From assembly GCA_001687465.1 (NCBI GenBank), contig LVLI01000328.1, positions 31,452 to 95,451 of the forward strand: a DNA stretch of 64,000 bases, in the 5' to 3' direction. The position numbers and the translations under genes are program-made. Below the pieces are notes generated by a model, which was given only the letters and a program-made list of their open reading frames with translations, had not been told where the DNA came from and did no database searches. Positions 1,804-64,000 of this stretch are shown here, in pieces (within the stretch, counting starts at the first letter, position 1; every line of letters begins with the position of its first letter). This DNA is from Halocafeteria seosinensis (Eukaryota; Sar; Bigyra; Bicosoecida).

Positions 1804-3969
1804 TCAGTCAGTAGTAGTGATTCTCAACCGAAGCGGCTTTACTGAATCCAATTCAGTCATCTCCACGTCACTATCATCGTGTGAGGAATCATCACCTTCC
1901 TCGAACTGACGCTTGCAACGGCTTGGGGTCATGGAGAAGTATATTAGGGGCACAACGAACCCGAACGAGACAAGCAGCAACCGGTACGTCCCATAAATAC
2001 TGGCAGGGATGCTACTGGGACTGAGTACTCTTTCTTCCTTGTAAATAGCTCGGAGACTTGAATACATGTTTACATAGCTCACATTCCCTGTCGTGAGATT
2101 TGCAAAGGTGTTTTCGTTGACATCTAGCAAGCCCGAGAAAGGCACTGGCCTATATCGGATATCCGGGTCGTCATTCGTCCTGTTCAACAGGTAATACTCT
2201 TCAACAAATCCTGAAATCACAGTGTGAGAGCTACCGAATATTACATGGTTATTGAAACTATCTAAACTAACCAGTTTCGTATCTTTTCCATCGCCAGGAA
2301 GTATCACTAGCGGCGGTTCGCCAGAATTATATCGGAGTTGGTAGATGAGCACCTGAATAGTGTTTGATTGTATCGTCTCCTGGTTGATGGGGGTCATATT
2401 GTTTGTCATTGTAGCCAATGTCACAATACCTTCATCATCAAAGTCCACTGGTAGGAACGGCGCACAGAATCCAGGATCAGCTACCCATGGTAGCTGCAAA
2501 TTGTTCACTAACCTAGCGTCTGTCCTTGGCTCAAACGCTACTCCGCTTGGTCGAAGAATAACCGGTCCGAAGACAAATACATCTGATGTTGGTAGGTAAT
2601 ATGCGCTTACAGGTCCTCGGTATTCAGGATCGGAGCTTGCATAGTTACAATAATTGACAATGTTTATCCTAGGCATTGTATGGATCCCTCTCAGAGTCAA
2701 GTATGCGCACGACAATGTTGAGTTGCTGTTGGAGAAGTCCATATAAGGATAGAAAACGATGACTTCGTCGTTTCGTTCGTCAATCCAGCGGACAGTTATC
2801 TTGTCCGTATTTCTTTGGATCTCGTTCCATTTGGGCCAAGAAAATTTTGGCATGGACACTTTGGAGTTGTAAATTTCGTAAGAGCTGTTCGTTCCCTTGT
2901 CCCCAAAAACTTGTAGTGAACCCGTCCCCCAATGGGTGTCGTACTCTGGTGCGTACTCGACGAAGCAAAAATAGAAAAAATTGTTGTCAAGTACGCCAAG
3001 TCTCATTTGGGAGTCTCCGATATCGGTACTTTCTTTATCGTACTCATTTCGGTCGCATAGTTTGGAAAAGGAATACCACCCCGTGCGTTGTACTACCCAT
3101 CCTGAAGATGTATCAAAAGCATATGTCGTTGTTAACCCTTCGGGTGTGTAATATACAAAAGTTTCTCGCTGAGCATCAAACGCAACATTGCATTCCGTCC
3201 CTCCATAGGTTGGCAACGTAAGACACTGAGTATCCGCCCTGATGCTTGCACCTGTTGCAAAGTACTTGCAATTCCCATTTCCCTCTGGGAAATTCTCGTC
3301 GAAAAAATGGAGGACGGTAACGCCGCTGTGCAATCTATATATGTCTCGGAAATCGCAAGAGAACTCTAACTTGTTGAATATGAAGTGTATACAAGACTCC
3401 ATGCACGCTTCAGTAAAATTGCTCACTAAAAATGTTGAGGGCGAGAGTCCTTGGTATCGCTCGAAGCCTGGTAGTTCTAGTGTGTTGTGCAATAGAAGAC
3501 AATAAGGACGGCGATCAAAACGGCATTGGATTGAGAGGTATTCCAATTGATTCAATTCCGCAGAGGGTGGCAACGGTAATACTAACTGTGGTACTTTGTT
3601 TCTCAATTGAGAATTCGTACTAATGGCCATCGGCGCCGGAAATTGTTTGCCAAAGGAATCCTTATACACGGCCCAATCCAAGAAGGAGTGTGTTATCATT
3701 TCAAACAGTTCTCCTTGTTCACTGCTCCCAGGGCACATATTCAGAGTATTCTGTTGCCCCTGGTGGACCGATATTCTGGGTGGATTTTTTGCCTGAGTAA
3801 GTGCACCGCGAGCAAAGTATGCGCAACCAATGCCGAATTCACAAGTAACCGTAGCAGGCTGACAGTATCCCGGAGGAATCGTTTCAAAGCGAGCAGATAA
3901 TTCGGTAGCGTTTTCATACTGCCACACTTCATACGCCCCATACAATGCAGTGGCAATCAAAATCATTAC
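1804..3969 (-). repeat. Unit 3 of the triplicated membrane protein (exon 4)
   Basis: The last exon, 721 codons plus stop. It has the same helix-lumenal-helix plan, but after the second helix it ends in a short acidic tail (EEGDDSSHDDSDVEMTELD) with no RPPTRSG motif, as expected if that motif belongs to the joint before the next unit. Confidence 0.78.
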
Positions 3970-6900
3970 CTGCGAACACAGAACCGCTGATTAAGCAAAC
4001 GAATAGCCACACGTGAGCCTACATAACAACAGACTTACAGATGCACATAGCCCACTTCTGGTAGGTGGGCGAGCTAAAGGCTTGGCTTTAAACAGATCTA
4101 CCTTAGCACCCACCCTTGACAGTTTCCCGCTGCCGAGGACTACCATGTCCTCTTCTCGCCAATGCGAGCGTCCAAGGACTATTTGTTTACCGCGAGAGCT
4201 ATCCTTGCGAGTCCCTCCTTCGCCGGTATAGTCTATTGCGCCACTCTTGCTGTGTTTTCCCGACGTTTCACCCCAAGACGGTACTTTGCCGGCTACGGCT
4301 TCTGTCTCCGAAGGGACTTCATTGTTCGAAGGACAACAACATAATACCAATGATAGAATCGGAAGCAGCAGTCCCAGGATACCAAACACGACTTGAAAGG
4401 CGTTATATATCCTTGCGGGCATACTACTAATTGTCAACGCCCTCTGTTCTGTCGAAACAGCTTTAATGCTAGGGTACAAGTTCACGAGGCTAACTTTACC
4501 GACGCCAAAGCGACTGAAGTCTGTGCCAACGTTTGGTTGAGGTCCCCAATACGAAACGGCTTCATAAACGAGCTTCGGAGTGTTCTTACTTCGGTTAAGC
4601 AAATGGTATTCCTCAAGAAACCCGGAGAAGGCTGAGCGTTCCCTCGAATAAAGGGTGGCATGGTCCGCGAAACTGTCCAGCGTCACCAGCGCGTCGTCCT
4701 GGAAAGGGAATTTCATAGAAGGGTTCAGTTCATCCCTATCCATCTGAAAGACGAAAAATCTCACTTCGGTGGCCTCATACAGCTTTTGTTGGTATTGTGG
4801 GCCTAGGAATGCCGCCAGTGTCATTTTATTAGTGTCCACACTCGAGTAGTCCACAGGTATCAACGGAGCGCATTCGAAGCCATCACAAGCCACTCTCCTA
4901 TAGTTTTCGTCTGCTGTGAGATTGTACAAGGCTCCAGTTCTCGTCACCAGAGCAGGACCAAAACTGTAAACATCGTTGTTAGGAAGGTAGTATGGGATAA
5001 GCCTGCCCTCGTAGGTATTTGGCGAAGCACCGTTAGGATCATAGGCGTAGCAATTCGGAACAACTTTCAGGACCGGTTTGTCATGAATGGTTTTCAGAAC
5101 GAAATAATGACAAGAAGTATACGGGTCGACGGTAGACTGAAAATCGGGGTACGGATAGAAGACAATAAATTCTGCCTCACTAGTATTGCTTCTTACCGCA
5201 GTGAGATGGGCATTATCGGGCGGAAATCCCCCGTATACCATTATTCCTGGCAACGCCTTGACACTTGTGTTTCCTTCACGATCGATTACATGCAAACTTC
5301 CATTTTTCCTCTCGTCGCCAAGGCAAAAGTAAAAATAGTTTTCATCGAAGACTGCTAGCCTGATGAAGCTGCAGTCAGTATCACCAGAAAAAGTATGGTT
5401 TTTGTCAATTCTGCTTTGCCACCCCACACCGTCGACATAGTGTAGCACCCTGGGTTGTCTTCCCCGCTGGTAGTCCTGTACTAGCGATTGCCGCTCGGAA
5501 TCAAACGTAAGCTCACTGGGGGGACGAAAGATACAGTCCCTAGTCGCGGAAAAAGTTGTAGCCAAAGACCCATTTTGCACAAGGTGTATCAGACACAAAC
5601 CCTTAACAGCATCACATGGTTCAGTTATAGCATCATAAAAATGAACATAAACCTGCAACAAGGCTCGGTCAACGCCAAAGCGGAATGCGGCAAGTGTGCA
5701 GATCTGGTTGCAGCTGAAGCACTTCCGAAGGTTAGCCATAGCGTCGTCCGTATCGTAGCATCTCTCTTCTCCGCACGAGTGCTGGCGGATGTCCGTAAAC
5801 CTTGCAACTATATTTGAGGACGATTTGTGGGAAGTCGCTAAACGCCTCTCCTCAAATGACGGTAAGCCAAGAGTGGCATGGAGCAGCGCACACTCGTGAG
5901 CAGTGTCGTGGCAGGCCATTGAAAAGTATTCAAGCTGGTTTGAGAATCCATTCGATGGCATCATCAAAATTGCAGAAGTTGCATTGGGTGTCAGATAGAA
6001 TTCCGGGCCTTGGCCGGATGCGTCCCGGGTTGTAAGGGATCTTGCATATAACGGTACCAGCCTAGCGAATTCAGAGACCTTCGGTATTTCCCATGAAAGC
6101 GTCGTTCGGCCAAGTATAGCTATAGCCTCTCCTTGGTTGCTACCACCAGGACACAGGTATATACTATCAGTCGTCTCGTCGGGCCCCATGGTAACCAAAG
6201 CTGGATTCTTCTCTATACTATAGCTGCCTGAAGGTTTGTAGACACATCCAACTGGGCTCTTACAAGTCATTGTCGCTTTGGTACAGGTTCCAGCTTCCAT
6301 TGTTTCGATCTTTGTGGTGAAAGAAGATGTTGTCTGATATTCCCGTATTTCATATACCGTAAACAAAGCAACAGCCACTAGTACCAATACCTGCGTACAC
6401 AAATAAACTATCGAATTGATAGGAGGTGCGGGCTGCTAATAATTGCGCTCATGTACACCTACCGTCGCTAACAGCCCACTTCGGGTAGGAGGGCGGTATA
6501 AAGGTTTATATTGAAACAAATCGGTAACTACAATGATTTTCTGCAAGGGCCCACCGTTAGTCCGAATTATGTCTTCTTCCTTCCATACGTCCCTTCCTAG
6601 AGTGCCTCTGCGTGGATCGCTTCCTCTCTCAGCTTCGTACAAGCATGGGCTAATATCGGGCACCGTTGTCTCTTTGGATTTTGTGACCGGCTCTGTAACT
6701 TCCGTAAGCGGATTTCGAGTCAGTGACGCTCTCGGCGTTTCTCGCTTACCCTTCACAAAACAGGCACAAAACACAAGAAAAACTACGGGAACAAAGAATC
6801 CCGTCAATACGAAAATCTGGCGGAACACGCCATAAGCGTTGGAAGGTATATCACTCCAGGAAAGGACTCTGCGTTCACTGTATACAATCTTCAAGGCGGG

Positions 6901-9012
6901 ATACAAGTTGATATAATGGAGGAATCCCAGGGTGTGTGGTTTATCCACGCTTTCCTCTGACGAAGGACCCAAATAGGACACTTGACGAAACCTTGTAGAT
7001 TGCTCATTGGACAAGGAGTAATGCTCTTCCACAAAACCCGTAATGTAGCTGCTGCTTGTATTTGCAAGTGACATGCTGCCAAAAGTTTCCAATGTCGCGG
7101 TGGCCCCGTCCGAGCAAGGAGCCAAAACTGTTGATTTCCCCAAGCTTCCAAAGACCTGGTACACAGAAAAATAGACATTTCTGCCTCCTAAAGGCTGGGC
7201 AGTCATTTTAGGCATACTTGCTAGTGCCAACACGTTCGTTCTGCCCACTTGGAAATCCGCAGGAAGATAGGGAGCGCAGCTGCCTTCGACACATACATGT
7301 GAGCGCATTGACTCCTCTGCATTCGGGATCGATACAGTACCGTCACCAAAAATGACTGCAGGCCCATATAAGTAAGCTTCCAAACTACCCAAAAAATACG
7401 GCGTTACCGGTCCTTGATAAAAGTACATGCCATTGGCATGGCCAATACAGTGGGGTATTTCGATCGTTGTGGGAGTCTCCGTCTCTGCTTTCCAGGAGAA
7501 ACAATACCAGGCTCCGTCCATGTCAGAGTTGATGTCGGAGTACGGATAAAATATGAATATACCATTTTCGCTGAATAGGTCGCGCCTTACATCCAAAGTC
7601 CCGTCGGATGACAGTCCCGTTCCTGGCGTGCTTAGTGCAATACGGTTTGTCAGATTTCCCGTTCCGTCGAACACCTCCAGAGACATAGTTCCCGTGAACT
7701 CTTCTTGACATATGAGAAAAATCCTTCCTTCGAATGTCCCAAGCTTCCTACTGCTGCTATCTCTTGTACAATCAGAAGTTGGAAATGGTTGTTGATTCAC
7801 CGTCCATCCAGAAAGTTTGCTGAACCTGTGATAGAACAATGCCGAGTTCCCTCCCCATACCGTGAACGTACTAGAAGTGACATCGAAGCTGAAATGAGTC
7901 TGAGAAGGATATTCTGAGAAGAATTCTGTGCACTCAAGTTCCAACAAGTGAGAGCCATTTGCAAGATCCATCGCGCACAAGGAAGAAAATCCATTGTCTA
8001 CTCCCTCGAATAACAATACCGCGACATCATCATCCAATTGGTAAGTTTCCTTTATTTGGCACGACAATACGGACCCTTGGCTACACGGTGAGACTAAATT
8101 TTCGGGAAGGATGGTCGTCTTACGGGTCTTCGTTTCGGGAGCAGTACTATTCTCGAATCCGGGAACACTGACTGTGTTATACACGACGACACAATTTCTG
8201 AGCCGATCTAGGTTATATACCTCACAAGAGGCAGTAATGTATCTCAATTCGTTCAGAGCAGAAGGCGGTAAGTATCCGATACGAGAACTTATACGACCAT
8301 TCAATCCTTTCATACCACCGACGATAAAGTAGTTACGATGATCTTCGGTTTGTGTGTCCTCCCAGTGGAGAGTAGTGTGACTGGCCAAAACGAAGGCCTC
8401 TGACTGAATTCTACTTCCCGCACAAATACCAACATTCGTAGTCGTTATTCTGGGCTTGAGGTACCCCGCCCTTCCATTGTGTTCGGCCGTTAGATTTCCA
8501 TGGGAGGTAAAAATGCATCCCATTGCGCAGTGGCACGTGATGCTAACATTCTCGCATGCGCCTGGTGGCAATGTCTCCATTCTACTTTCAGATTGAATTG
8601 TAGAAAAATACTCCCACACTTGATATCCCCCGTAGGATGCCGCTGCCAATAACACGAAAACCTGTGGACAATGCAGAGAACATGAACCAGGTGGGTCATA
8701 TCTAATTGTTGCGTTCGAGGCACTTACAGTCGCTAGGATCCCACTCCTTGTTGGCGGGCGTTGAAATGGTGCGGCTTTTAGGACATCTCCTTTCCGCAAC
8801 AGAGTGTTTTTCAAAGCCCCCGTGTCTTGTATGACGTCGTCTTTTACCCAATACTCTCGTCCAACAGGTACTTTGGAGTCAGATTGGCCATTCAAAGCTG
8901 TTCCCAGTGAGTAGATATTTCTCGCAATTGGCTTCTCGCGTTTTTCCGGTCCTTCAAACCCTCGTGACTCCGGTCTCCATGGCTTTTCCCTTCGCTCTGG
9001 TACATCAGACAT
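1804..9012 (-). CDS. Internally triplicated six-pass membrane protein, family not recognised
   Basis: Four minus-strand exons (9012-8728, 8661-6463, 6390-4039, 3969-1804) joined by 66, 72 and 69 nt phase-0 introns give 2333 residues. Exon 1 (residues 1-95) is a charged cytosolic-looking leader ending in RPPTRSGILAT. Exons 2, 3 and 4 each encode one unit: a helix at the exon start (VFVLLAAASYGGYQVWEY, VLVLVAVALFTVYEIREY, VMILIATALYGAYEVWQY), about 600 lumenal residues with many Cys and N-glycosylation sequons, a conserved block (FVEEHYSLSN / FLEEYHLLNRS / FVEEYYLLNRT, then NLYPALK-like), a second helix, and a cytosolic linker. Linkers 1 and 2 end in the same RPPTRSG motif as exon 1; unit 3 ends in an acidic tail instead. 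Three separate genes would have to start inside splice acceptors and leave under 100 bases for promoters, so one gene is much likelier. Function is unknown; a surface or endomembrane role is inference. Confidence 0.8.
4039..6390 (-). repeat. Unit 2 of the triplicated membrane protein (exon 3)
   Basis: A 2352 nt exon with phase 0 at both ends (784 codons), the longest unit. Its second helix is FQVVFGILGLLLPILSLVL, followed by CCC. The linker ends in RPPTRSGLCAS, directly before a GTAAGT donor. Confidence 0.8.
6463..8661 (-). repeat. Unit 1 of the triplicated membrane protein (exon 2)
   Basis: A 2199 nt exon with phase 0 at both ends (733 codons). It contains an N-terminal helix, a lumenal domain, a C-terminal helix (FRQIFVLTGFFVPVVFLVF) and a linker ending in RPPTRSGLLAT. 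It aligns by eye with units 2 and 3 at both ends and at the EEHY/NLYP block. Confidence 0.8.
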
Positions 9013-24040: not shown

Positions 24041-25280
24041 ATGCAAGAAGTTCCAAGACAAACAAGCAATGCCACTCGACTTGGAAAGTCATATGCCAGT
24101 CAGCCCTCATCCCCATCATTTATCGCGGGAGCAGTCCACAAGACGCCACCAGTGTGTTTCAAAACGGAGGATATTAAGACGCTCTCGCTTCCTATAGGCA
24201 CCCCGCATCCCCACTTTCCATGCTTGGCCATCATCGAGTCGACAACGAATGGTATCATGGAAGGCGTGGTGGAGGGCATTGACGAAACCGGGGACGATGT
24301 GCTATGGATTTCGACACCAGAGAATGATAACCATAATGTAGGTTTTAGCCGTGGAATGCAGTTGTACTCACTGCAGCAATTATCTTACCAATCCTACGAT
24401 GTGTGCAGGTGTCGGCTACAGTATTTCTTGGGGGAGAACGTATATCAATCAGCGTGCACCTTTTCGCAACCCCGGATCGAAAAGAAGACGGGGGATATTA
24501 TGTTTTATTGCAAGCTTTGTGTCACGGTGTAAGTGAAGAAAGACTATAGGGATGAAGGATAAAGTGGTCAGCACACGGGTGTGAAATGGAATGCTGCAGG
24601 GATATGGCTGGAACTTCTTTACTATTTGGGACGCCATTGTCATGGAGCTAAAGGCATGTGCGAAAAAGGTGCAAAGATTTATTCCCCAGATCGAAGAGGA
24701 CCCAGCGAAAATGTCTAAGCAACCCTCTCTGTCCGAGCAATTACGAAGCTCGCAGATTCCGGCCCAATATTCAACAGCTTCGAACCCTGCTCCCGAGAAT
24801 CTGCCGGAAATCACCGAGGAGGACTTCGCTCCTGCTCCTCCACCTGCGTCAGAACCCAGGGCTGACACCGCCGTGAATCTTCTTCGGGCGCCGTACGAAC
24901 ACGAACGAGGAACAGGTCTAGAGTTGCTTGCGGCGGAGATGGATAGCGAAAAAAGCAGAAAGCAAATGTACGAGCCGCTCTGCGAATGCATAGGTTCGGG
25001 GAACGAGTTTTCAGAGAGCCGCATTCGCGCTTTAAGTCTCTTTAACAGGATGCTCAGAGACGGATATATAACCTCGTCTGACTCTGTCCCCTTCAGCCGT
25101 ATGAAGGAAGGAATAAACGAGATCATTAAGGAGAAGGAAGAAAACGTTACACCTTCATTCCAGTATATGAAGCGAGAGTATGCTGAACTTGCTCTGAAAG
25201 TGATTGCAAATGCAAGGCACTTAGTGGGAGCGACAGCGCCTGAAGACTTGATGAAGTCGTTGGAAAGTGCCGGGAAATAG
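24041..25280 (+). CDS. Unknown tandem family, copy 1 (most diverged)
   Basis: Exons 24041-24337, 24409-24528 and 24600-25280, both introns phase 0, give 365 residues. I do not recognise the family. Shared blocks: GTPHPHFPCL near the end of exon 1, a 40-codon middle exon reading VFLGGERISISVHLF, and exon 3 opening with GYGWNFFTIW. A C-terminal helical domain contains SRIRALSLFNRM. The linker in exon 3 is rich in Pro, Glu and Ser. No signal peptide or membrane segment, so a soluble intracellular protein is likely. The Met is preceded by a GTG-initiated extension that has no counterpart in the other copies; MQ is also the start of copies 2 and 3. A perfect inverted repeat (25326-25341) lies just after the stop. 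Confidence 0.75.
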
Positions 25281-26847: not shown

Positions 26848-28110
26848 ATGCAGGCCAATCAAGGACAAGAACAGCAGCATACTGCTTATAAGGACCCGGA
26901 GAGCTCACCAGACTCGTCGGCACCCGGAAGTCGAGAACAGTGTACACCAGCGAAAAAAGGCACAGTCAAAACAGATCCACTTCTTCATGCCATCGCAACT
27001 CTTCCGGATGGAATTCCAAAGAGCTCGCCGCATCCTCATTTTCCGTGCTTGATTGTCATTGACTCGAACTTGAATGGCCTAATGGAATCAGTACGAGAGG
27101 GAATAGAGGACTCTGTGGACCAAATGCACATTCCCGCGGATGCTGGAGACAAATACCATGTAAGGATTATAGATGAGGAATGTTTTGTGGGCTGATGAAT
27201 TGCGTTAACTTGAGCATCCCTTGTGCTGCAGTTGGAAGCAAGTGTTTTTATTGGAGGTGAGCGCATTAGACTCAGTGTGCACTTATTCATGGAAGTCGCC
27301 GATAAGCAGGGTAGTCTAGCCAAACTCTTCCTCCAGGGCTTTTGCCACAGCGTATGTTATGCCTTTGTTCTCATTTTATTCGAATTGGTACGTGTGAAAT
27401 CTTAACCTCGATTCCTCATTCTTTTGCAGGGCTACGGCTGGAACTTCTACACCGTTTGGAACGGAATTCTCGATGAACTCAGATGTAATTCGAAGAAAGT
27501 GCAGCGCTACTTCCCCGCAAAAGAAGCAGATCATCAACCAATATTACGGAAGGACAAGGTGGCTCCCACTCAACTGCCTCGCTCCGACGAAGCAAGTGCT
27601 TTCTTTCCATCATCCTCACAAGGATCGGAACTTGCACCGCTTCCTGACATAGACATGCACGCCCCTGCAGCGGTTCCTGGAGAACCTACTGATGAGGATT
27701 TCATTAACTTGATGGAATCCAAGTTCGAGAGTGAGAGATGCTTAGGAATGGAATTTGTCGGGTCAGATTTGAAAAAATTTGGTACTCCGGCGGTGATTCG
27801 ATGCCTCTTCAAATGTGTAGGTAGTGAGAGTTCGTACTCTGGAAGTCGTATAAGAGCAATGAGTTTGTTGAATAGAATGGTAAAAAGTGGGCTTTGTTCT
27901 GCTTCGTTGATTGACTTCGATAGCCTCAAGAGTGGTTTAACCGCGCTAGTCAGAGAATGTAGGGATGAGAGTAACTGTTCTCCATCCTTCTTGTATATGG
28001 TTGACGAGTATGTTTCCTTTGCCGAAAAGTTCATTGAAACTGTGGCGAAACGACTGCATGTGGAAGCTGACTCGTCTATCCGAGATAAGATTGCAGAGTT
28101 GAAACAATGT
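25773..28110 (+). repeat. Segmental duplication, copy A (flank plus family gene 2)
   Basis: This stretch aligns along its length with 29464-32199. The shared opening is ACAGCAAGGTTGGATGGTTG. It covers roughly 1 kb of 5' flank and nearly all of family gene 2. Similarity stops just before the stop codon, where copy A runs into (AT)n at 28125-28142. Differences are more frequent in the flank than in the exons and introns. The alignment was made by eye. Confidence 0.85.
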
Positions 28111-28125
28111 TGCAAGACACACTGA
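26848..28125 (+). CDS. Unknown tandem family, copy 2
   Basis: Exons 26848-27159, 27232-27351 and 27430-28125, phase 0 throughout, give 375 residues. It is nearly identical to copy 3 over exons 2 and 3 and both introns. Conserved blocks: LPDGIPKSSPHPHFPCLIVI, a 40-codon exon with VFIGGERIRLSVHLF and FCHS, then GYGWNFYTVWNGILDEL and a C-terminal part with SRIRAMSLLNRMV. The segment around residues 195-225 is low-complexity with Ser and Pro. It lacks the domain inserted in copy 3. The last residues (CCKTH) differ from copies 3 and 4, which share NRT near the end. Function unknown. Confidence 0.8.
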
Positions 28126-30560: not shown

Positions 30561-32199
30561 ATGCAGATCAATCCAGGACAAGAACACCAGCATACTGCTC
30601 GTAAGGACCCGAAGAATTCACGGGACTCATCGACACCCGGAACTCATCTGCCACAGCATACGAAGCCGAGGTCACCAACGGACAAAGATACGGTGAAATT
30701 TGAGCTGCGAGCTCTAAAGAGCTTCGCTGAAAAGCATGGAGAAGAATGGCACGACGACAGACAGAAGATTTGTGACCGACTCAATAAAGGTGTGGAGAGC
30801 AAGGTAGCGGTCATCGATGAAAAGGGCAACCTCAGCGTCAACACATGGTGTAGAAAAGTGGATGCTATCGCGTTTTCCGCGCGTCATGGAATAAAAGGGG
30901 TCAATGCATGGGTCAGCAAACCTGAGCAAAGACGTGAGCTAGGGGACTGGTTGAACAAACTGCAACTCGTGCTCGAAGGCAGTTCCATAGCGGATGAAGG
31001 ACGTGGGAGACGTGCATCTAAAGGCATGGAGCGCGACGTGGAGGTTGTCGATGAAAAGGGTAACCTACTTCATTCCTTCGCAACTCTTCCGGATGGAATT
31101 CCAAAGAGCTCGCCGCATCCTCATTTTCCGTGCTTGATTGTCATTGACTCGAACTTGAATGGCCTAATGGAATCAGTACGAGAGGGAATAGAGGACTCTG
31201 TGGACCAAATGCACATTCCCACGGATGCTGGAGACAAATACCATGTAAGGATTATAGATGAGGAATGTTTTGTGGGCTGATGAATTGCGTTAACTTGAGC
31301 ATCCCTTGTGCTGCAGTTGGAAGCAAGTGTTTTTATTGGAGGTGAGCGCATTAGACTCAGTGTGCACTTATTCATGGAAGCCGCCGATAAGCAGGGTAGT
31401 CTAGCCAAACTCTTCCTCCAGGGCTTTTGCCACAGCGTATGTTATGCCTTTGTTTTCATTTTATTCGAATTGGTACGTGTGAAATCTTAACCTCAATTCC
31501 TCATTCTTTTGCAGGGCTACGGCTGGAACTTCTACACCGTTTGGAACGGAATTCTCGATGAACTCAGATGTAATTCGAAGAAAGTGCAGCGCTACTTCCC
31601 CGCAAAAGAAGCAGATCATCAACCAATATTACGGAAGGACAAGATGGCTCCCACTCAACTGCCTCGCTCCGACGAAGCAAGTGCTTTCTTTCCATCATCC
31701 TCACAAGGCTCGGAAGTTGCACCGCTTCCTGACATAGACATGCACGCCCCTGCAGCGGTTCCTGGAGAACCTACTGATGAGGATTTCATTGACTTGATGG
31801 AATCCAAGTTCGAGAGTGAAAGATGCTTAGGGATGGAATTTGTCGGGTCGGATCTGAAAAAATTTGGTACTCCGGCGGTGATTCGATGCCTCTTCAAATG
31901 TGTAGGTAGTGAGAGTTCGTACTCTGGAAGTCGTATTAGAGCAATGAGTTTGTTGAATAGAATGGTAAAAAGTGGGCTTTGTTCTGCTTCGTTGATTGAC
32001 TTCGATAACCTCAAGAGTGGTTTAACCGCGCTAGTCAGAGAATCTACGGATGAGAGTAACTGTTCTCCATCCTTCTTGTATATGGTTGACGAGTATGTTT
32101 CCTTTGCCGAAAAGTTCATCGAAACTGTGGCGAAACGACTGCATGTGGAAGCTGACTCTTCTATCCGAGACAAGGCTGCGAAGTTGAAACAGTTTTGCA
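29464..32199 (+). repeat. Segmental duplication, copy B (flank plus family gene 3)
   Basis: This is the partner of 25773-28110. It is longer by about 400 bases because family gene 3 carries an inserted coding segment in exon 1. Similarity is traceable from the microsatellite to the last codons of the gene. Confidence 0.85.
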
Positions 32200-32222
32200 A
32201 CGGGAACCGAACTTGTCTATGA
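30561..32222 (+). CDS. Unknown tandem family, copy 3, with an inserted exon-1 domain
   Basis: Exons 30561-31244, 31317-31436 and 31515-32222, phase 0, give 503 residues. Exons 2 and 3 are almost the same as copy 2. Exon 1 starts alike (MQINPGQEHQ against MQANQGQEQQ) and ends alike, but between TVK and LLHSFATLPDG it carries about 125 extra residues that are absent from the other copies. The insert is charged and helical-looking (LRALKSFAEKHGEEW) and contains two related 12-residue blocks, VAVIDEKGNL and VEVVDEKGNL, about 77 residues apart. I do not recognise it. The last codons (CNGNRTCL) extend a few residues past those of copy 4. Confidence 0.8.
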
Positions 32223-33145: not shown

Positions 33146-34432
33146 ATGGCGTCCGTATTCCACGCAAATCGGGTCACGCAGAAAGCACCGATCGCGTGGC
33201 AAAAGGACAGAAACACAAGAAAACCAAGAGTGAACGACCAAGTACTATGCCAGTACAGGAGCAGTCTTCCGGAGGGGATACCAAGTGGTAAACCGCATCC
33301 GCACTTTCCTTGTGTAGTGATAGATGATTCCAATATCAAGGGCGTCACGGAAGCTGTGGTAGACGGTATTGAAGCCGTCGTTGACGAGGTTCACTACAAC
33401 CGTAATCCACAGGACAGCGACAGGAATACATACTCGGTGCGTCTAGGGAACCAAAGAGCTGATTTAATGAGCTTTTTCACCCGCATGACTTGCTTTTCAT
33501 TTGTGGTAAACACAGGTTGACGCTAGTGTCTTTTTCGGAGGCGAGCGGATCAATTTTAGCATCCATGTGTTCATCGAAGGAGTGGAGACAAAGGAGAATC
33601 TCGTTCGGGTGCTACTGCAAGCATTTTGCCACAGTGTAAGTGATTCACCTTGCTTTGCTAAGAGACAAAAAATTCTGCAACCAACGTCTGTTCACTCCTC
33701 GTTGTTTGAATTGCGCAGGGTTATGGTTGGAACTTCTACAGTGTATGGGAAAGTATCCTAGAAGACTTCAAAGCTACTGGCCTAAAAGTCGAGCGATATG
33801 TACCAGAGGTAGAAGAAAATCCATCGGGACACTACCAAAGATCAATGGCAGCAGCAGTTGCTCACAATCGAACTCGTCCCTTCCATTGCGAGGAACCAAG
33901 TGCTTTTTCTCCTAATTGTGATGAGACAGATCCGCCAGTACTGCCTGATATGGAAATACATGCCCCTGCAGCGGTTCCTGGAGAATCCACTGATGAAGAT
34001 TTCATTAGCTTGATGGAATCCAAGTTCGAGAATGAAAGATGCTTAGGGATGGAGTTTGTCGGGTCGGATCTGAAAAAATTTGGTACTCCGGCGGTCATTC
34101 GATGCCTCTTCAAATGTGTAGGTAGTGAGAGTTCGTACTCTGGAAGTCGTATAAGAGCAATGAGTTTGTTGAATAGAATGGTAAAAACTGGGCTTTGTTC
34201 TGCTTCGTTGATTGACTTCGATAGCCTCAAGAGTGGTTTAACCGCGCTAGTCAGAGAATCTACGGATGAGAGTAACTGTTCTCCATCCTTCTTGTATATG
34301 GTTGACGAGTATGTTTCCTTTGCCGAAAAGTTCATCGAAACTGTGGCGAAACGACTGCATGTGGAAGCTGACTCTTCTATCCGAGACAAGACTGCGAAGT
34401 TGAAACAGTTTTGCCACGGGAACCGAACTTGA
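33146..34432 (+). CDS. Unknown tandem family, copy 4, mosaic
   Basis: Exons 33146-33436, 33516-33635 and 33719-34432, phase 0, give 374 residues. Exon 1 (LPEGIPSGKPHPHFPC), exon 2 (VFFGGERINFSIHVF) and the first part of exon 3 (GYGWNFYSVWESILEDF) are clearly diverged from copies 2 and 3. From about 33958 to the stop the DNA becomes nearly identical to them (for example GTPAVIRCLFKCVGSESS and everything after it), with only scattered base changes. Introns are in the same places. The frame is open upstream to 33089 without an ATG, so the start is the Met of MASVFHANRV. Function unknown; the conserved C-terminal part is probably an all-helical domain. Confidence 0.78.
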
Positions 34433-53567: not shown

Positions 53568-56500
53568 ATGGCATCATGGAAGCCATCATGCTGGATTTGG
53601 ATCCTCCTCGCAGTGCTACGAGCACGAGAACACATCGTCAATGTATCAGCAAGTATCAACATCCCACCTATGGAGCTATGTCAAGGAGTTTCATGCAGCA
53701 AGGGTCTTCACGCTGTATTGACGACAGACGGATGCAAGTGCCATGAATGCCCGGTAAGGAACATGAAACAAGTACACCCTCACTAACTGTGTGTGTAACA
53801 AAGTGTATCAAAACTCTACCCAAGAATGTATACCGTTTGTCAACACAGCCTGGTTTGTTTAAGAGCACAGACGGTACCGCAAAATGCAGAAAATGTGGGC
53901 AAGTACCAGCCCGCAGAAGGAAAGTCTTCGTGTCTAGAGTGTGAGTCAGGGAGGTATCAGGGACACCGCTGGAATGACTGTAAGCTAGAGTCCCTAAGAG
54001 CAGATGTCGCGGAGTGAGCAGATCTCCTCTTCCATTACATGCAGGCATGCGAAAAATGCTCTAGCGGGAAGACAAGCGAACCAGGAAGTCCTTCTTCCAA
54101 ACGATGTGTAGATTGTCCGGAAGGTAATGGTCAATTTAGTGTTCCTTTGCTCGTTAGCGCCCCAACAATAAAGTTAGCCGAGTACCTTCACCGTATTGGG
54201 TTCCTACAGGAACTTATGCTTCGAAAGGAGTGTGCGTTGACTGCCAACCGGGCAAATACATGGCACAATCTGGCAAGACCATCTGCTTGAACTGTGAGAA
54301 AGGACGGTATCAACCTAATGCGGGACGCACTCAATGTTGGACATGTGAAGCGGGACGATATCAAAATTCTATAGGCAAAGAGAAGTGAGCTACGTGCACA
54401 GATTGTCTCGACGAACTGGTGCTGACAATGATTTTTAAATGTTGTATTCAGATGCGATGATTGCCCTCCCGGAAAATTTAGAGGTGATTCCAGACACCCG
54501 AAAGACGCTGTACGATGCACCAATGCACCTCCTGGAACCTTTGCTTACAGGGCGGCACAGCAGCCTACAAAGTGTCCACCGGGTAGATATTCACATGCGC
54601 CGGGAGCTTCTAGTGCAAACTGTGACGGACCGTGCTCGGCTGGACGGTATTGCCCCCAGAGGGGAACGTCAGATAAGGACTCAGGGCCCCTATGCAAGGC
54701 AGGACGATACGGGGCGGAGGGCGAAAGCAGGGAGACATGCACCTCTGCTTGCCCAGCAGGCTACTACTGCGGTGCTGGAACCGCAGAATTCCAGTGGAAG
54801 GTCTGTGGAGGACCAAGACTTTACTGCCCATCTGGAAGTGTCGAAGCACTTCCCGTCAGTAAGGGGTACTATTCCGTGCCAGAGTCCGCCGACCAGGATA
54901 CTAGAAGTGGGCAAGAAGAGTGCCCAGAAGGCAGCTACTGCTCTGAGGGAATGAGATACCCGTGTCCAGCAGGAAGATACGGACGCATTGTCGGGTTGAC
55001 TGAATCTTCATGCTCTGGGAGGTGCTGGGACGGATTTAGGTGCCCTGAAGGAAGCAGTTCTCCCCGGGAGGAGCCATGCTCTGATAACGACCCAACCAAA
55101 TATTGCCAACATGGAATACAAAGAGTTTGTGAAAATGGACATTATACGCTACCCACTGATACGGATAATGCTACCCGTACTGGATGCGAGAGTTGCTCAA
55201 CTGGATTCGTCTGCAGGGGTGGCTTGAGAATGAAACCATTGGAGTGGACTGACCCAGTTTGTACGTTGACTAATCCTCTAGGCTACTTGGTAGAATCAGT
55301 AGATCACCCCGTAGAACTCGCGACAAATATCGGGAGACCAATTCAGGCGAAAACTCCTGTGGAATGGAGCGATTTTGTCTACTACATTAACACAATCCGG
55401 TACGGATCACCTGACACGGCAGAGGTATGCGAGACGGCATTGAACGGCCTACAATTTGCTCTGAATACTGAGGACGTCAGTGAGGCAAGCTCAGATAATG
55501 TTCCTCAAAAGAGGACTCAACTGGTCCTCGCACAGCGTTCAGTTGTTGCCAGTGCAACTTGCACGCAAATGGAAATTAACGTTACGGCTGAGCTTCGAGT
55601 CGATTCCCAAACATTTAGTTTGACGTGTGGCGTTCCCCTGACGATAGAGCGTCATAACTCCGCACCAGTCAGAAGGAATGGAACAGCTGATCCTCTAAGA
55701 ATGGAAGTGCCTATCAACCTACTCCGTGGTCAGCAAATTGGTGATGCGCTGACCGAGTACTTTGATGACCCTGACGGAGATGAGCTCGTCTTCACAATTA
55801 CCGCTGGGGATGAAGCGCAGGCGAAGGAAGAACAACCATTTGGGCTCGCAAGCTGTTCCGGGAAGCTGTTTGTTTCAGATGCTCGCTTACTGCGAAAAAA
55901 TGGAGCTCGCTCATACTCATTTTGGGTAAGTATCAACGACAATTCTCCCCAGGAACCGAAAGCTATATCGCATAAGATACTTGTAGAGACTTTAAAGCCT
56001 AATTCCCCTCCTGTTTTGCTGAAGCGACCGACTCTCTCTGTATGGGAGAAGGCAGCGATAGGAACAACTGCGGCATTGGCAGTAGATGGAGAAGAGACCA
56101 CTGAAAGGGGCATTCTAAATTCTTCATTTGTCCATGACCCTGATGGCGACATCGTATTCGTAGAAATACGGGAATGTTATGTAGACACTGCCTGTGATAC
56201 TTTCATTATTGCAGAAAATGGTGTAGTTCTTGTGGAGGACAATTTCTTTTTAGAACGTGAGCGGCAAGGTACCCTCCCTCGCTTGCTCCCCATTAGATAT
56301 AGTGATAATTTTGAAGATGGGATAGACGTCAATCTGCCAGTCAAAGTAAAGAGGTTGAGAAAAGCTCCAGTTGTTTCCAAGACGGCTTTTCAGGTCTCAG
56401 AATGGCGTTATGGACGAGTGGTACAACTGAACGCCTATGATGAATTTGCTGACACATTCAGGTTTACTCTGGGCGCAGAATGGAACAACATGGGAACCGA

Positions 56501-59500
56501 AAAGGAGGATGTAGTACTGGCAAGTGACGGAACCATTCGTGTAACTAGTGCGACGCCTACAGTCACGTGTGATCAATTTTGCCGCTGTTTCAAACGTTAT
56601 CAATGGATTAAACTAAACGTTTTCGCAACGTCTGTCAACAGAACCGATGACCTCAAAGGACCGATTACTTCTGCTGAGACTGAAATCCATATTGACATTC
56701 TTGCGGTGAATCACAGACCTACATTTATTCAACCAAAAGCCCCAATTAGCTCCTTAGAAACGGACGTTTCCCCAAGCTATGTCGCCAATCTGTCGAACCT
56801 AGTCTGTGACCCAGACAACGATTTTATTGTTTTCACCGGAGTAGCCTCAACGCCAGTCCCTAATGCTTTCCAAATCGATGCCACCACCGGAGTTTTGACC
56901 CGACGTCCCGGGTATAGCTTTAACTACGAAGAGGAAAACGTTTACAATGTGACGGTTGTTGTCCAAGACAATGGACGTCCTTCGCAAGAGACTCAGGGGG
57001 TTTTCTTAGTGTATGTCATTGACGTTCCCGAAAAAGCGTCTTTGCGTCGTCACTGCTTCGCAATTGATGAAATGAGCACTGCAATTTCGGGGCCTTTTGG
57101 GAGAATTGAAGCTCTAGACCTAGATATTCACAGTGGCAGCACGAAGCCCTTTTCATCGACGCCATCGAGGTTCTTATACGTCCAGAATAACTACTTCACG
57201 AAGTTCTTGATATCGGAAGGAGGCAACCTTTCCTTGAATGCGAACTTTACACCCAAACACGACGAATTATTCCCTGAAACTTCTTTCGGTGTTCTTGTAA
57301 CAATCGTAGATTACGAGAATGACGTCAATACCTCGGTGACGGTTGAGATTGAAATTATGGATGTCCCTGAACCTCCATACTTTTTACCTCCAGTACAGAG
57401 GTTTACACTTGACTTGGCACAAAAGCATTCGAAGGAGCTGGGTTTAGTTAGGGCTTACGATGTCGACGTCGGAGATGAGTTGCTATTCGAGGTATGGGAC
57501 GAGTTCTCCATTCTCGATATAGATCCTCGAGCTGGGCGACTGATCCATACCGTTGATGTTACCGAAGACTTTGGTATCGACCTGCCCGGAACTTTAGAAA
57601 TTACAGTGGGCGTAACCGATAGCACCGGCTTGCATACAAGCAGTACCCACCTTCTGCAAGTCATGGAAGCTCCAAAACTCCCGGAGTGGCGTGGAGATTT
57701 CGCCAAGGATGGTGATTTAGCTTATTCGGTCGAAGAGCATCATTGTGGCATTATCCGGGCAATTAACTACTCCTGCTTTTCAGCAAAACCTACACACGTT
57801 GAGATAGTTGACGCTGTTCCTGAGGCAATGAGAGACTTGATTTCTCTCCATGAGAGGAGCGAAGCAGTTCAGATCGATAACCCAAAACTTCTGGATTTCG
57901 AGTCGTTGGAATACAGGAACGGAACCTTGACTTTTGCTTGTGTCGACGTCGATGGTTTGCGTAGCACAAAAACTGTACACGTTGACGTAAGAGATGTCCC
58001 TGAACCCCCTGAGTTTGTTGATCTTCCGGAACAAGTAACCATCTCTGTTCGCGAAGACGTGGAAGTGGGAACGATTATTCACTCCTTTGAAGCAGTTGAT
58101 CAAGACGTGGGGGGTAGCACAAGTAAATTAGTGCCTACTCTAATTTATGCAGATGATAGGATCCAGAATACCAGTGCGCCAGCGCCTGTGTCTGCTTCGG
58201 CGACCTGCCAACGCACTTCAACTGGAGGTATTCGCTGCACTGTACAAGTCAAGCTGGTTGAGGAGCTGGATTTTTTAAAACAAGAGACGTACAGGCTGTA
58301 TTTGACTGTAACGGATGAATCATTGCTGCAAGCAGCTCTTGTGTATGAGGTACAGGTCGTTTTCGTGAACACCGGCCCCGTGTTTACCAAGGAGCAGCCA
58401 CGAGAAATTGCCTGTTTAGAGAACGTCACTAGTTCAAGTGTTCTGTTTTCCGATTTTCGAGTTTTCAGTCGGGACGCTGACGCAATATTGTCATTGTCGG
58501 TAGTGGCCACCTCTCCTATCAGCATCTTTCGTTTCCAGGATACGCAATTGAGGTTACAGCCGAACGCTTTCTGGATTTCGAGGAACATCCCAGTCATCAC
58601 ATCCGGATTCGTATAACGGACTCACATGGACTTTATGATGAGTTGAACATGACGCTGATCGTGATGGATGTAAATGATATTCATGTCTATACTGTTAGTC
58701 CTAGAGAGTACTCTACGACCGGGAATACATCGGCTTCATTTTATGGATCCAACTTAGGACCTCAATGGAAAGCTATGAAAATAGTTGCATCGCTTTCCAA
58801 TGCTGAGGGAAGTATTTTTATCTCTCAGGAATGCACAAGGCAACTAAATCAAGACGGTAGATGGAACAATTCTGTGATACATTGCTGTGTAGGACCAGGT
58901 ATTGGAAAAGACTTAACGTGGAGGATATCAGTTGGGGAACATCAGCATACACTGGAGCAGCCTAGCTCGCAATATCACCCTCCTAGGCTAGACGAAATTG
59001 ACTCATGGCCAGTGAGTCCGTCTACAGCTGGGGGTGAAACATTCACATTATCAGGGATTTCACTCGGTCCCACAACTGTTAGAAATGCAAGTGGAATTGC
59101 CAATCCAGTTCCTGTTTACGTGAGGTACCGGTCATCGGATGATCTGGAGACTGAGTTCCGCGCTATGCAATGTGTTGTTGAGTCCGACGTTTTGATCACG
59201 TGCAAGACGGGCGAGGGGATAGGAAGAAGATTGGAATTTCAAGTGTCGTTAGGATACCCGGGTTCTTCTGCACAACGGACACAGTGGCTGAAACCAATTC
59301 CTGAAGTGCAGTATGGATTTCCGATTATTACGAATGTTGATTTACTGCTTGATTCCGCACCATCAGACGGCGGGAGAAATGCAGTACTCCTCCGTGGGGA
59401 AAATTTCGGTGTGAAAGGTACAGCCATTAAAGCAACCCTCGAAAATGCACAGTTCGCTTTTGATTCCGCCTGTAACGCGGCACTTCACAATCACACTACG

Positions 59501-62500
59501 GCATTGTGTGACTTACCTGTGGGTGTTGGTTTCGGCCTGAGATGGAGGGTTACCGTTGGACGTCTGAGTGGAGAGACAAAAACTACAGCCTCCAACATAT
59601 CTTATGATCCCCCCACAATCAATGCCATAGTGAATAACTTAGGAAGAGAACCGAATGGATTGGACACCCGAGGTGGGCAGCAAATTCTAGTGAGAGGAAA
59701 AAATTTTGGACCTGCAGGCTTGACTTCAAGGGTCGATATTCCTTACCTGTTCCTGTCTTATGGACCAAACCAGAGCACATTCGTGTACAACGCAAGCCGC
59801 TGTTTCATTAGAACTCCACATACGGAGTTAGGGTGCTTAACAGCAGTTGGAGTTGGTACCGGACATCACTGGCAGGCACTGATAGGTGGCCAGCGTTCGA
59901 ATGTGCTACAAAGTAATGGCGGGTATCACCCCCCAGTAGTGACGACGTACCGTAGATCGATGGATCAAAATTCAATGAGGATTGACGATCTGAAGACAAC
60001 CGGAGGGGAACTCATTATGCTTACCGGCAATTATTTTGGTCCTGCCGGTACTCTATTGACTGCGACGTATGGACGCAACGGTATTTTCTTTGAAGCATCA
60101 GGCTGCTTCGTTTCAGATCACGACACAGCCACGTGTCTAAGCTCTCCAGGTGCTGGAGCTACCCATTCATGGTCAATCGTGGTGGGACAACAGAGGTCTG
60201 TTCAATCCAGTACCTCATACGCTTCCCCAATAATTACCGGCTTCCAAGGAGTGAATGGATCTGAGCCTAGTGCTCTATGTACTCAGGGAAACAGTTGGAT
60301 CGACATTGTTGGGAGCAATTTTGGACCTCCAAGCCCGGATGACCTGTTAGAAGAAGTGACTTTTGGATCAATGGCAAGAGAAACGGGCGCTACCAATTGT
60401 CATGTGATTGCCCACGAGCGAATCCGTTGCCGTGTTCCCCGAGGATTAGGAACGCACCATCGATGGATGATTGTAGTTGCCGGACAAGGAAGCGAAGCAA
60501 GCGCTAATACCACCTCTTACGCGCCCCCTGTGATAGAAGAGTACCAGTTTCCACACAAACGTGCGACCAGTGGAAGCGACTTATCTGTAACCCTGCGGGG
60601 ACACGACTTCGGTATCCCTCAGGAGGAAGCAGAGATTTTTGTCCTATTTGATACCATCGGAAGATTGTCTAGACTTGCTGAAGAGCTTAAGATAGACAAC
60701 GTTGTCAAAGTGGTCAATACATTTATACAGAGCAAACAGAAAGCTCCGGATCGAAGTGAAGAATGTGAAGATACTTGTTTCGATTTAGAGCTTGCCGACT
60801 GGACACGGAGTATACACAGCATTGTGGTTTCCGGTAAAAACTCCGCCATGTACACAGATTTTGAGGAAATCCACTTCAATCTCCCAGATGGTTTCGGCAG
60901 CGGACGGCCGATCATGGTCTCTGTTAACGGGAGACTTTCGGAACCTGTTTGGTTCTCGTATGACCCCCCTCAAATTTCGAACGTAGCACCGCGCGTTCCA
61001 CAAGGAGGCATGCTGGAGGTTGTTATCGAAGGGGAGAACTTCTGTGGAGGAAAGTCCTGCTCAGGTTCGGAGTGCTGTGGAAGACTCTACGTGAACGGAG
61101 AGATTGTCGAGATTCCAAAGGAACAGTATACACATTCAAAAATCACCGCCCACTTAAGCACAAAGGATAGTTTGACAGGGGAGCTTTGGCTTGGCGTTCA
61201 GGACCACCCAATCAGCACCAAGCGATACACATTTGATAGAATCGCTCCCGCTATTGGGTCCCAGATACAGTTTGGAATCCAGGGTCCGTTTGAAACTAGA
61301 GGAGGACAAACGTTAAACATTTTCGACGTTTCTGGCGTAAGAAAGTCTGATGAGTCCGATACAACGGTGTTTGTAGGTGGAAAAGAATGCAAGTCTCTCC
61401 GGGTGCTGTCTGTCGAAAAGCGTGACTTACAACCTTTTGCTAATTTGTCTTGCACCACTCCTCCACACGTAGGAGAGAAGCTACCGGTAACGGTACAAGT
61501 GCACGATTCCTTGTCAGCTCAAGACTTCCACATCGACTATGCAAGGCCTACGATTTGTTTTGCGTACCTAATTGACACTGAAGGGAGTCCTGTAATTCTT
61601 TACGATCGTAAGTCGTCCCGCTGCTCATCTTTAGATCCTCGGCTAGGAACCCGAAGGAGAGGGTTGATGACCCAAGAAGGAGTAAGTACATTGGGTGAAC
61701 TAATCGTGGTAACAGGATTCAATTTGGGTTCAAGTGAGCTGGAGATGATGAGTAGTATATCGATTGAAGACATTTTGGCCGCGGATATAGGACTTGAAAC
61801 TCATGATCATGGGAATTTCAGTTTCAGAATGCCTCCGGGAGCTGGTAAGAGCTTGAAAGTCCAATTTTTTGTTGGATCATTTTCAAATATGGCTGAATTC
61901 GAATTGAGCTATGCTCCACCGAGACTATTTTCCTTGTTTCCCAACGAGCTTCCGACACTTCCAGAGCCTAGTGACACTCTTATTCTCGTCGGGGAAAACT
62001 TTGGCCCTGCCAGTGTGAGCGGATTCGTGCCCAACGTGTTGGTTTCAATTGACCACAAAACATGCACCGTCATCTCCTCGAACCAGACGACTATCATTTG
62101 CATCCCTCCTTCTGGTCAGGGCAACAAACTACCTTTGAATGTCACTATCGAGGGGCAATCCAGTCTGCCGATTTTTATTTCTTATCGGAAAGCATGGATC
62201 GATTCTGTGGTTCCCGCAACTGGTCCTACGAGTGGTCTGAGTGAAAACGGCATCCCATATTCTATAACGATCTATGGATCGAATTTCGGCTCCTTCGGAC
62301 AGGTTTATTTCGAGAGCTCTCCTTCTCCCGTCTCAAATCCAGAGTTTAACCATTCCACTATTACGTTCCGTTTGCCTGAAGGATATGGACGGGATGTATC
62401 CGTAAATGTTGTCGTCGGTGGGTGGGGTGAAGTTAGTACACTTAACGAGGGTTCGTTTTCCTACGATCCTCCAACAGTAACGGACGTAGTCCGTCTCGCT

Positions 62501-64000
62501 GCGGATGGTAGCGAAGCGTTTTGTAGACCAACAAGAAGATGCATTGTCCGTGGAAACAACACGCATTGCTATGATGACCATCCCGATTGTTTTCCGACGA
62601 CAGGGAATGTACCCGTGAAGATTAAGGGCATAAATTTCGGAAGCTCGCTTTCAGCTGTGAAGATCTTTATTGGGGAAAATGAGTGCTCCATTAAGGGGAC
62701 AAAATTTAGTTTTATCTCACATACTGCTGTTCACTGTACGCTATCCAGTGGTTGGGGAAGCAACTTGGTCGTTGATGTGACGGTTGGGGGACAATCATCC
62801 GCTTCCGTTGATGAGTTCTATTTTTCGTATGATCCACCCCGGATATCGGATGTATCTCCGAATGTCCCCGATGCTGAAGGAGCTGAGCTCCGGTTTCGTG
62901 GATCGAACTTTGGTCCCGCTGGAGGTGACGCCTGGGTGATGGTTGGGGAACGACGTTGTATGGATCCGATTGTGCGATCTCACTCCATCATTGAATGTGC
63001 TATGGAAGCTGATGTCGTTGGCGCGAAGGAAATCAACCTAACAGTAGCTCGCCAACAAGTTGTTTTCCCCGCATGGCGTGAGAAGATTGTGACAATGTGT
63101 CAACCAGAGTGGTACGGGTTGGAATCAGAAACCTGTTTATATTGCCCAGACCATCTACGGGGAGCAGTCTGTCCTGGAAGAGAGAGGACCGAGGATAAGA
63201 CGTACGCAGATGAGGGTTGGTGGAAAATTAATGAACCGACACCATCATCAAGATGTCACGATGACCGTCAAGGGCGAGAAACATGTCCCGTACTACTACC
63301 CTGCGAACCGCCATGGGCATGTACTGGCTCTAACGAGTGTGCGGAAGGATACTCTGGGGAACGCTGCAGCAGCTGCGTTGCCGGGACGCATTTCAGAATT
63401 AATGGAGAGTGTCAAGCTTGTCCCAACCACGCCTGGCTATTAGGTGTAGTTCTTTCAGTGGCTGCGATTGGGGCTATCATTGGGGGATACATTATCAACT
63501 CTAAAAACATTCAGCTTGCCGCCTTCACTGTAGGGGTGGACTATTTTCAGGTGATTGCTATGTTCGCTAGGACAAGGGTCCAGTGGCCGTCAGTGATGGA
63601 ACAGACCCTACAGATGCTGTCTGTGTTCAACTTTAATTTAGAGCTTGCAGCTCCAGAATGTTATTTGGAACCTGCTCCTCCTTACGAATCAAAGTGGATA
63701 GCGACCATGTCCGTTCCCTTGATTGCTGTCGGCATACTCTTTGTCCTTTACGCTGTCCATTACGGGTACAAGCTGTTGGTATTACGTGCTCCTTCGTCTC
63801 GACGACATACGCATGTAAATTCTCTGATTGCAACATTTATCGTCATAATGTATATTTTATACATGTTCTTGACCCGCATGACTTTGGACGTTTTCAACTG
63901 CGCACCGACAGACCCCCCAGATGGAAAGTTGTACATGTCGGGTATGACAGATATCGTTTGTGGGGAGAGCAGTGTCCATGTGCATTTGCTACTTCCTTTG
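53568..64000 (+). CDS. Giant cell-surface protein: GCC2/GCC3-like Cys repeats, cadherin-like repeats, IPT/TIG repeats, multi-pass C-terminus (runs off window)
   Basis: Exons seen: 53568-53753, 53849-53979, 54045-54123, 54210-54384, 54452 to the window end. A signal peptide opens the protein (CWIWILLAVLRA). Up to ~55250 follow ephrin-receptor-like Cys repeats (GKYQPAEGKSSC, GKYMAQSGKTIC, GRYQPNAGRTQC). About 55600-58680 are cadherin-like repeats (FDDPDGDELVF, RAYDVDVGDELLF, LDFEEHPSHH). About 58700-63060 are roughly twelve IPT/TIG repeats (GENFGVKG, GKNFGPAG, GSNFGPPS, GSNFGPAG; SYDPP before many). A Cys-rich EGF-like knot follows (63090-63430), then hydrophobic helices around 63440, 63690 and 63830, with FNFNLELAAPEC between. 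The C-terminus is outside. Frames break at ~53898 and ~58542, and the 53979/54045 junction does not close, so this is an approximate model of a gene or of a decaying copy. Role in adhesion or sensing is inference. Confidence 0.75.

Follow-up and report, generated by a model that had tools for sequence, protein, structure and literature searches.

A predicted six-pass membrane protein of three tandem two-helix units, and a paralogous triplet, in Halocafeteria seosinensis

Three adjacent open frames on the minus strand of a contig of the bicosoecid Halocafeteria seosinensis raise the question of whether they are separate genes or parts of one. They lie at positions 1804-9012 of the window, by which is meant the whole stretch of DNA analysed (64,000 nucleotides (nt) of contig LVLI01000328.1, assembly GCA_001687465.1, forward-strand positions 31,452 to 95,451), with the start codon at 9012. 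An earlier reading of the letters, hereafter the sequence-only reading, had joined them into a single gene, and this is well supported by comparison with a paralogous locus of the same genome. The fuller reading advanced here, to which a probability of about 0.5 is given, is that the gene encodes a 2333-residue six-pass protein of three tandem units that would function as an ordered three-headed membrane receptor.

Splicing the four minus-strand exons in silico (Table 1) produces a joined frame of 7002 nt and 2333 codons with no internal stop, and the coordinates, intron lengths, phase and acceptors proposed by the sequence-only reading were reproduced to the base. Introns 1 and 2 carry an in-frame stop, so that their retention would cut the protein down to one or two units; intron 0 carries none, so that this junction, alone, could equally be read through. 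All three intron lengths are multiples of three, and retention of intron 0 would add 22 residues ahead of helix 1. Near the junctions there are 8, 8 and 10 open in-frame GT-AG pairs, the chosen pairs counted in, and every junction has one extra pair that shares the donor and places the acceptor 51-57 nt downstream; the chosen pairs are preferred because their positions agree with the introns of a second triplet described below. A genome scan with a degenerate splice-like pattern returned 57 matches against 76 for the reversed pattern, an uninformative result without enrichment. A local yardstick for introns is provided by the adjacent gene for the proteasome subunit Rpn3, which is 100% identical to the public-set protein GECG01014900.1, a transcript-contig protein judging by its entry name (the GECG entries are presumably the H. 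seosinensis transcriptome). Mapping this protein onto the window leaves two gaps of 226 nt and 74 nt, the shorter of which reads GTAAGT...CCGCAG. Splicing across the three junctions of the triplet is predicted from such sequence features. Further named matches of Rpn3 included oomycetes and brown algae, and also animals with similar scores.

A search of the organism's own assembly (30.6 megabases, 605 contigs) with units 1, 2 and 3 and a single-unit relative as queries brought up, among the best-scoring candidates, the same seven units in all four cases: the three of the window, three on contig C592 and one on contig C20. A match on contig C40 (expectation value (E) 0.03) belongs to a different repeat protein and was rejected as a relative. 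The C592 gene is read as five exons encoding 2377 residues and separated by four phase-0 introns (64, 80, 60 and 66 nt); its first small exon, read manually from the first Met, is less certain. Introns of this second triplet stand at the same three places as those of the window triplet. The single-unit gene on C20 (L022 6882-8563) has no intron at the triplet position, so either the triplet line acquired the intron or the single-unit line lost it. Near this gene are frames resembling apyrase, presumably of the GDA1/CD39 type.

In a tree of the seven units, each unit pairs across the triplets with its positional counterpart (1-1, 2-2 and 3-3, supports 99/99, 99/98 and 100/99), and the pairing persists when the tail columns are removed (100/98, 100/99 and 99/98). 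Long branches occur on two rows of the tree, those of the single unit and of C592 unit 1. Forcing the window units into one clade, a hypothesis set after the tree had been seen, is rejected by the approximately unbiased test (p-AU 5.85e-53), and identity is 31-35% between units at the same position in different triplets versus 21-29% inside one triplet. Because the units pair by position, the triplication predates the duplication of the whole triplet, and unit number and order were kept afterwards; the triplication is thus old, as the sequence-only reading had supposed. The order in which the three units split from each other has a tree support of just 54/33. The argument is carried by the tree of the units together with the positions of the introns.

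The three exon products are homologous, aligning over most of their length with 27% identity between units 1 and 2 (E 3e-67), 28% between units 2 and 3 (E 3e-72) and 26% between units 1 and 3 (E 8e-67). Local alignment scores of 616-654 compare with shuffle means of 42-43 and a highest shuffled score of 72 (100 shuffles each), so that the earlier claim of three related two-helix units survives the shuffle test attached to it. One helix is placed at the start of each unit and a second near residue 616-685 of its exon; a Kyte-Doolittle scan with a cut-off of 1.6 recovers 5/6 of these helices in the window triplet, 6/6 in the paralogue and 2/2 in the single-unit gene, and both termini of each unit are predicted to be cytosolic. 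In the window triplet, the three predicted ectodomains hold 22 N-glycosylation sequons and 55 cysteines, and the 321 predicted cytosolic residues hold 0 sequons and 2 cysteines. The second triplet has 23 sequons and 53 cysteines in its ectodomains, with 4 of each in the cytosolic segments. These segments were set by hand without the helices and their margins, so that cysteines at the cytosolic end of helix 2 go uncounted. The distribution of sequons and cysteines probably reflects a single topology with six helices. Conservation is highest in two blocks, one running from the end of a cytosolic motif into the start of helix 1 and the other formed by the segment ahead of helix 2, and much of the ectodomain drifts; this pattern suits three heads with separate partners on a conserved membrane part.

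The cytosolic motif, of ~50 residues and ending in RPPTRSGLLAT or similar, stands ahead of each helix 1, encoded by exon 0 and by the ends of exons 1 and 2, and it recurs in the second triplet, with a weaker match in the single-unit gene. Aligned with the five other triplet motifs, the unit-1 motif reaches scores of 69-100, and with that of the single-unit gene a score of 46; shuffle means are 19-21. Exon and structural unit are out of step, since the 3' end of exons 0, 1 and 2 in each case encodes the motif belonging to the following unit: by the predicted features, the structural unit comprises motif, helix 1, ectodomain, helix 2 and linker, and the exon begins with helix 1 and finishes with the motif of the unit that follows. 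The claim that each copy is a single symmetric exon is right as to symmetry for exons 1 and 2, the only symmetric internal exons, and has to be given up for exon 3, which is terminal, and for the match of exon to unit. In the linkers, from helix 2 to the next intron, the used frame is free of stops in 4/4 cases across both triplets, the other two frames contain 3-10 stops each, and 15, 40, 0 and 26 of 5000 shuffles stay open, so that this stretch looks coding. Each motif of the second triplet has the same-position window motif as its best partner (3/3, scores 98, 124 and 117). A likely history begins with a two-exon single-unit gene (motif in one exon, the rest in the other), followed by tandem duplication in which a tail was fused to the next motif, and by multiplication of the resulting symmetric middle exon; fusion and multiplication would have taken place once, ahead of the duplication of the whole triplet.

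Table 1. Predicted features of the window triplet (window positions).
Feature	Position	Strand	Length, junction or score	Content
Exon 0	8728..9012	-	95 aa	Predicted cytosolic N-terminus; 3' end encodes the motif seen ahead of every helix 1
Intron 0	8662..8727	-	66 nt, GTAAGT...CCACAG (acceptor CCACAG|GTT), phase 0	No in-frame stop
Exon 1	6463..8661	-	733 codons	Predicted helix 1, ectodomain 1, helix 2, linker, unit-2 motif
Intron 1	6391..6462	-	72 nt, GTAGGT...ACGCAG (acceptor TACGCAG|GTA), phase 0	In-frame stop present
Exon 2	4039..6390	-	784 codons	Predicted helix 1, ectodomain 2, helix 2, linker, unit-3 motif
Intron 2	3970..4038	-	69 nt, GTAAGT...TCGCAG (acceptor TTCGCAG|GTA), phase 0	In-frame stop present
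Exon 3	1804..3969	-	721 codons + stop	Predicted helix 1, ectodomain 3, helix 2, cytosolic tail
Predicted helix 2, unit 1	6760..6816	-	Kyte-Doolittle peak 2.69	
Predicted helix 2, unit 2	4336..4392	-	Kyte-Doolittle peak 2.78	
Predicted helix 2, unit 3	1924..1980	-	Kyte-Doolittle peak 1.86	
Cytosolic motif, unit 1	8728..8877	-	50 codons	Last 50 codons of exon 0, ending RPPTRSGILAT
Cytosolic motif, unit 2	6463..6612	-		Coded at the 3' end of exon 1; from motif alignment
Cytosolic motif, unit 3	4039..4188	-		Coded at the 3' end of exon 2; from motif alignment

In the proposed receptor, each unit would consist of the ~50-residue cytosolic motif, helix 1, a cysteine-rich, sequon-bearing ectodomain of ~590-640 residues, helix 2, and a cytosolic linker or tail. 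Joining on the cytosolic side would hold three non-equivalent heads next to each other in a set order and a 1:1:1 ratio, either at the cell surface or in the lumen of an endomembrane compartment, where each head would have its own partner, a glycan or a protein, and the conserved membrane-proximal parts would pack the helices and carry assembly or a signal. A surface receptor for prey or glycans, as would fit a bacteria-eating flagellate, is a guess. If the reading is right, the locus represents an unnamed protist membrane protein family in which a one-chain triplication was fixed once and duplicated en bloc with its order kept, and would offer a simple example from nature with which to ask why receptor subunits become fused, the paralogous triplet being a built-in control that indicates which parts are constrained. 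An architectural parallel is found in the four-repeat voltage-gated sodium and calcium channels (Nav, Cav), in which equal subunits were anciently fused into one chain and the repeats are position-specific; the proteins are unrelated, however, and the units here are three, each with two helices. A bolder version, which seems rather unlikely, takes the chain as a natural, gene-fixed hetero-trimer of two-helix receptor or channel subunits, each position having its own role, that would be the three-unit counterpart of these channels and an undescribed family.

The sequence-only reading had recognised no family, and searches against Pfam, NCBIfam and the PDB sequences likewise gave nothing above threshold; the family is unnamed. 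Candidates tried and rejected were PgaA_barrel (E 0.0036, 16.9 bits against a cut-off of 27), TerB_C (E 0.17) and Spore_YtrH (E 0.22), each matching 1/7 units scanned, and PDB-sequence matches to calnexin (E 0.3) and SIZ1 (E 0.47) chains. An internally triplicated two-helix protist protein did not appear in the titles and abstract openings of the literature searched. Part of the ectodomain may form a beta-propeller, as judged from a low-confidence structure model. In a Foldseek comparison of the whole-unit model, sortilin chains top a weak list with template-modelling scores (TM-scores) of 0.10-0.13, and one sortilin chain is among the 50 listed structure matches of a separate comparison. Sortilin and other Vps10p receptors would share with the units a propeller-type ectodomain, the size being similar, but have one helix where each unit here has two, and the Vps10 profile has no Pfam match in the units.

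Several observations speak against the six-pass, three-headed receptor. Helix 1 of unit 1 is marginal, with a Kyte-Doolittle peak of 1.58; 4/27 counted sequons of the second triplet fall in cytosolic segments; and some patches of the ectodomain are almost as conserved as the membrane-proximal blocks. The structure models are weak, with a predicted local distance difference test (pLDDT) of 36 for a whole unit and 49 for a C-terminal part. Each window motif finds its best partner in another window motif (100 vs 98, 125 vs 124 and 125 vs 117), and since window motifs score slightly higher among themselves, motifs alone are no proof of positional pairing. Searches of a large protein set with unit 1 and then with all 7 units gave 0 matches at E <= 10 among 7998 scored candidates each, in a search that missed even the single-unit gene and whose length rule drops triple-length proteins, although the set contains transcript-derived proteins of this organism, as the Rpn3 match GECG01014900.1 illustrates. 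Because the single-unit gene was missed too, the absence of separate ~750-residue proteins is weak evidence, and because the search relied on shared words and left out triple-length proteins, the null does not indicate that other organisms lack the family.

The same one-chain gene is compatible with a polyprotein cleaved in its cytosolic linkers into three independent two-helix proteins, a fate that the length of linker plus motif (93-137 residues) and its variability between triplets would allow; the conserved cytosolic motif within each linker, reaching helix 1, and the identical number and order of units in both triplets argue against cleavage and make this quite unlikely. A similarly low probability is given to a cargo receptor of the early secretory pathway resembling Erv41/Erv46. 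Members of the ERGIC family (Erv41-Erv46; PF13850, PF07970) have two helices, a short cytosolic N-terminus and a D-x-F ... T-x-x-G type motif before helix 1, a layout which the units share. When the N-terminal pieces of the window triplet were scanned against Pfam, ERGIC_N alone matched at E <= 10 (1/3, E 0.097, 13.3 bits), lining up with the motif and helix 1, and a comparison of N-terminal profiles gave P 0.0066, obtained with a small profile of few sequences from this genome and without an unrelated-helix control. The 13.3 bits, however, fall far below the curated cut-off of 27, the C-terminal profile comparison gave P 0.11, and the lumenal domain profile COPIIcoated_ERV (PF07970) is unmatched in the units, whereas ERGIC-type genes above both cut-offs occur on three other contigs of the same genome. 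The ERGIC_N similarity is best taken to hint at a two-helix layout in common and not at membership.

A concatenated trimeric ion channel of the P2X or DEG/ENaC type, with three two-helix subunits around one pore, would account for the presence of exactly three units in both triplets and for the two best-conserved blocks adjoining the membrane. The units share with P2X receptors (PF00864) two helices, cytosolic ends by prediction and a large cysteine-rich ectodomain, and the genome has 21 partial P2X profile matches at E <= 1, 1/21 above the cut-off. Nevertheless, the P2X and DEG/ENaC profiles are unmatched in the Pfam scans of the triplet, the ectodomains of ~590-640 residues, partly propeller-like in the weak model, are about twice the size of those of P2X, and helix 2 has a conserved proline and no conserved polar pore residue was seen in it, all of which makes the channel very unlikely. 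P2X proteins assemble as trimers, as stated in PMC5447177, and the units here differ in standing three to a chain. Least probable are three adjacent tandem-duplicate genes, each with a short first exon and joined by chance or occasional read-through, since, even if each unit is about a full protein in length and another contig carries a single-unit gene, the linkers are stop-free in frame, the splice sites of both triplets occupy one and the same position at each of the three joins, and an in-frame Met is absent from the linker after unit 1 and found once, within the motif, in the linker after unit 2.

Further observations concern the genome and the remainder of the window. Four large open frames (L058, L059, L060 and L061, on contigs C507, C491, C543 and C12) have a C-terminal part that is ERGIC_N-like below threshold (E 0.006-0.06) and spans two of three predicted helices, an unusual domain combination with upstream stretches that we take to be FG-GAP, BspA-type leucine-rich and GCC2/GCC3 repeats. 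The 21 partial P2X matches (E <= 1) lie on contigs C103, C183, C264 and others, several of them clustered. Ectoine synthase matches were found on two contigs of the genome, and no genome match to a light-harvesting protein was obtained at E <= 0.001. PMC5447177 gives 13 P2X-related genes for H. seosinensis and cites an up-regulated ectoine hydroxylase.

On the plus strand of the window, four tandem frames (24585-25280, 27406-28125, 31491-32222 and 33710-34432) are partly near-identical (GYGWNFYTVWNGILDELR...) and resemble recent gene duplicates, perhaps of VHS type by our assumption. Two overlapping plus-strand open frames at 54432-58616 and 58481-64000 encode 1394 and at least 1840 residues, the second exiting at the window end, and presumably contain GCC2/GCC3-, cadherin- and IPT-like repeats.
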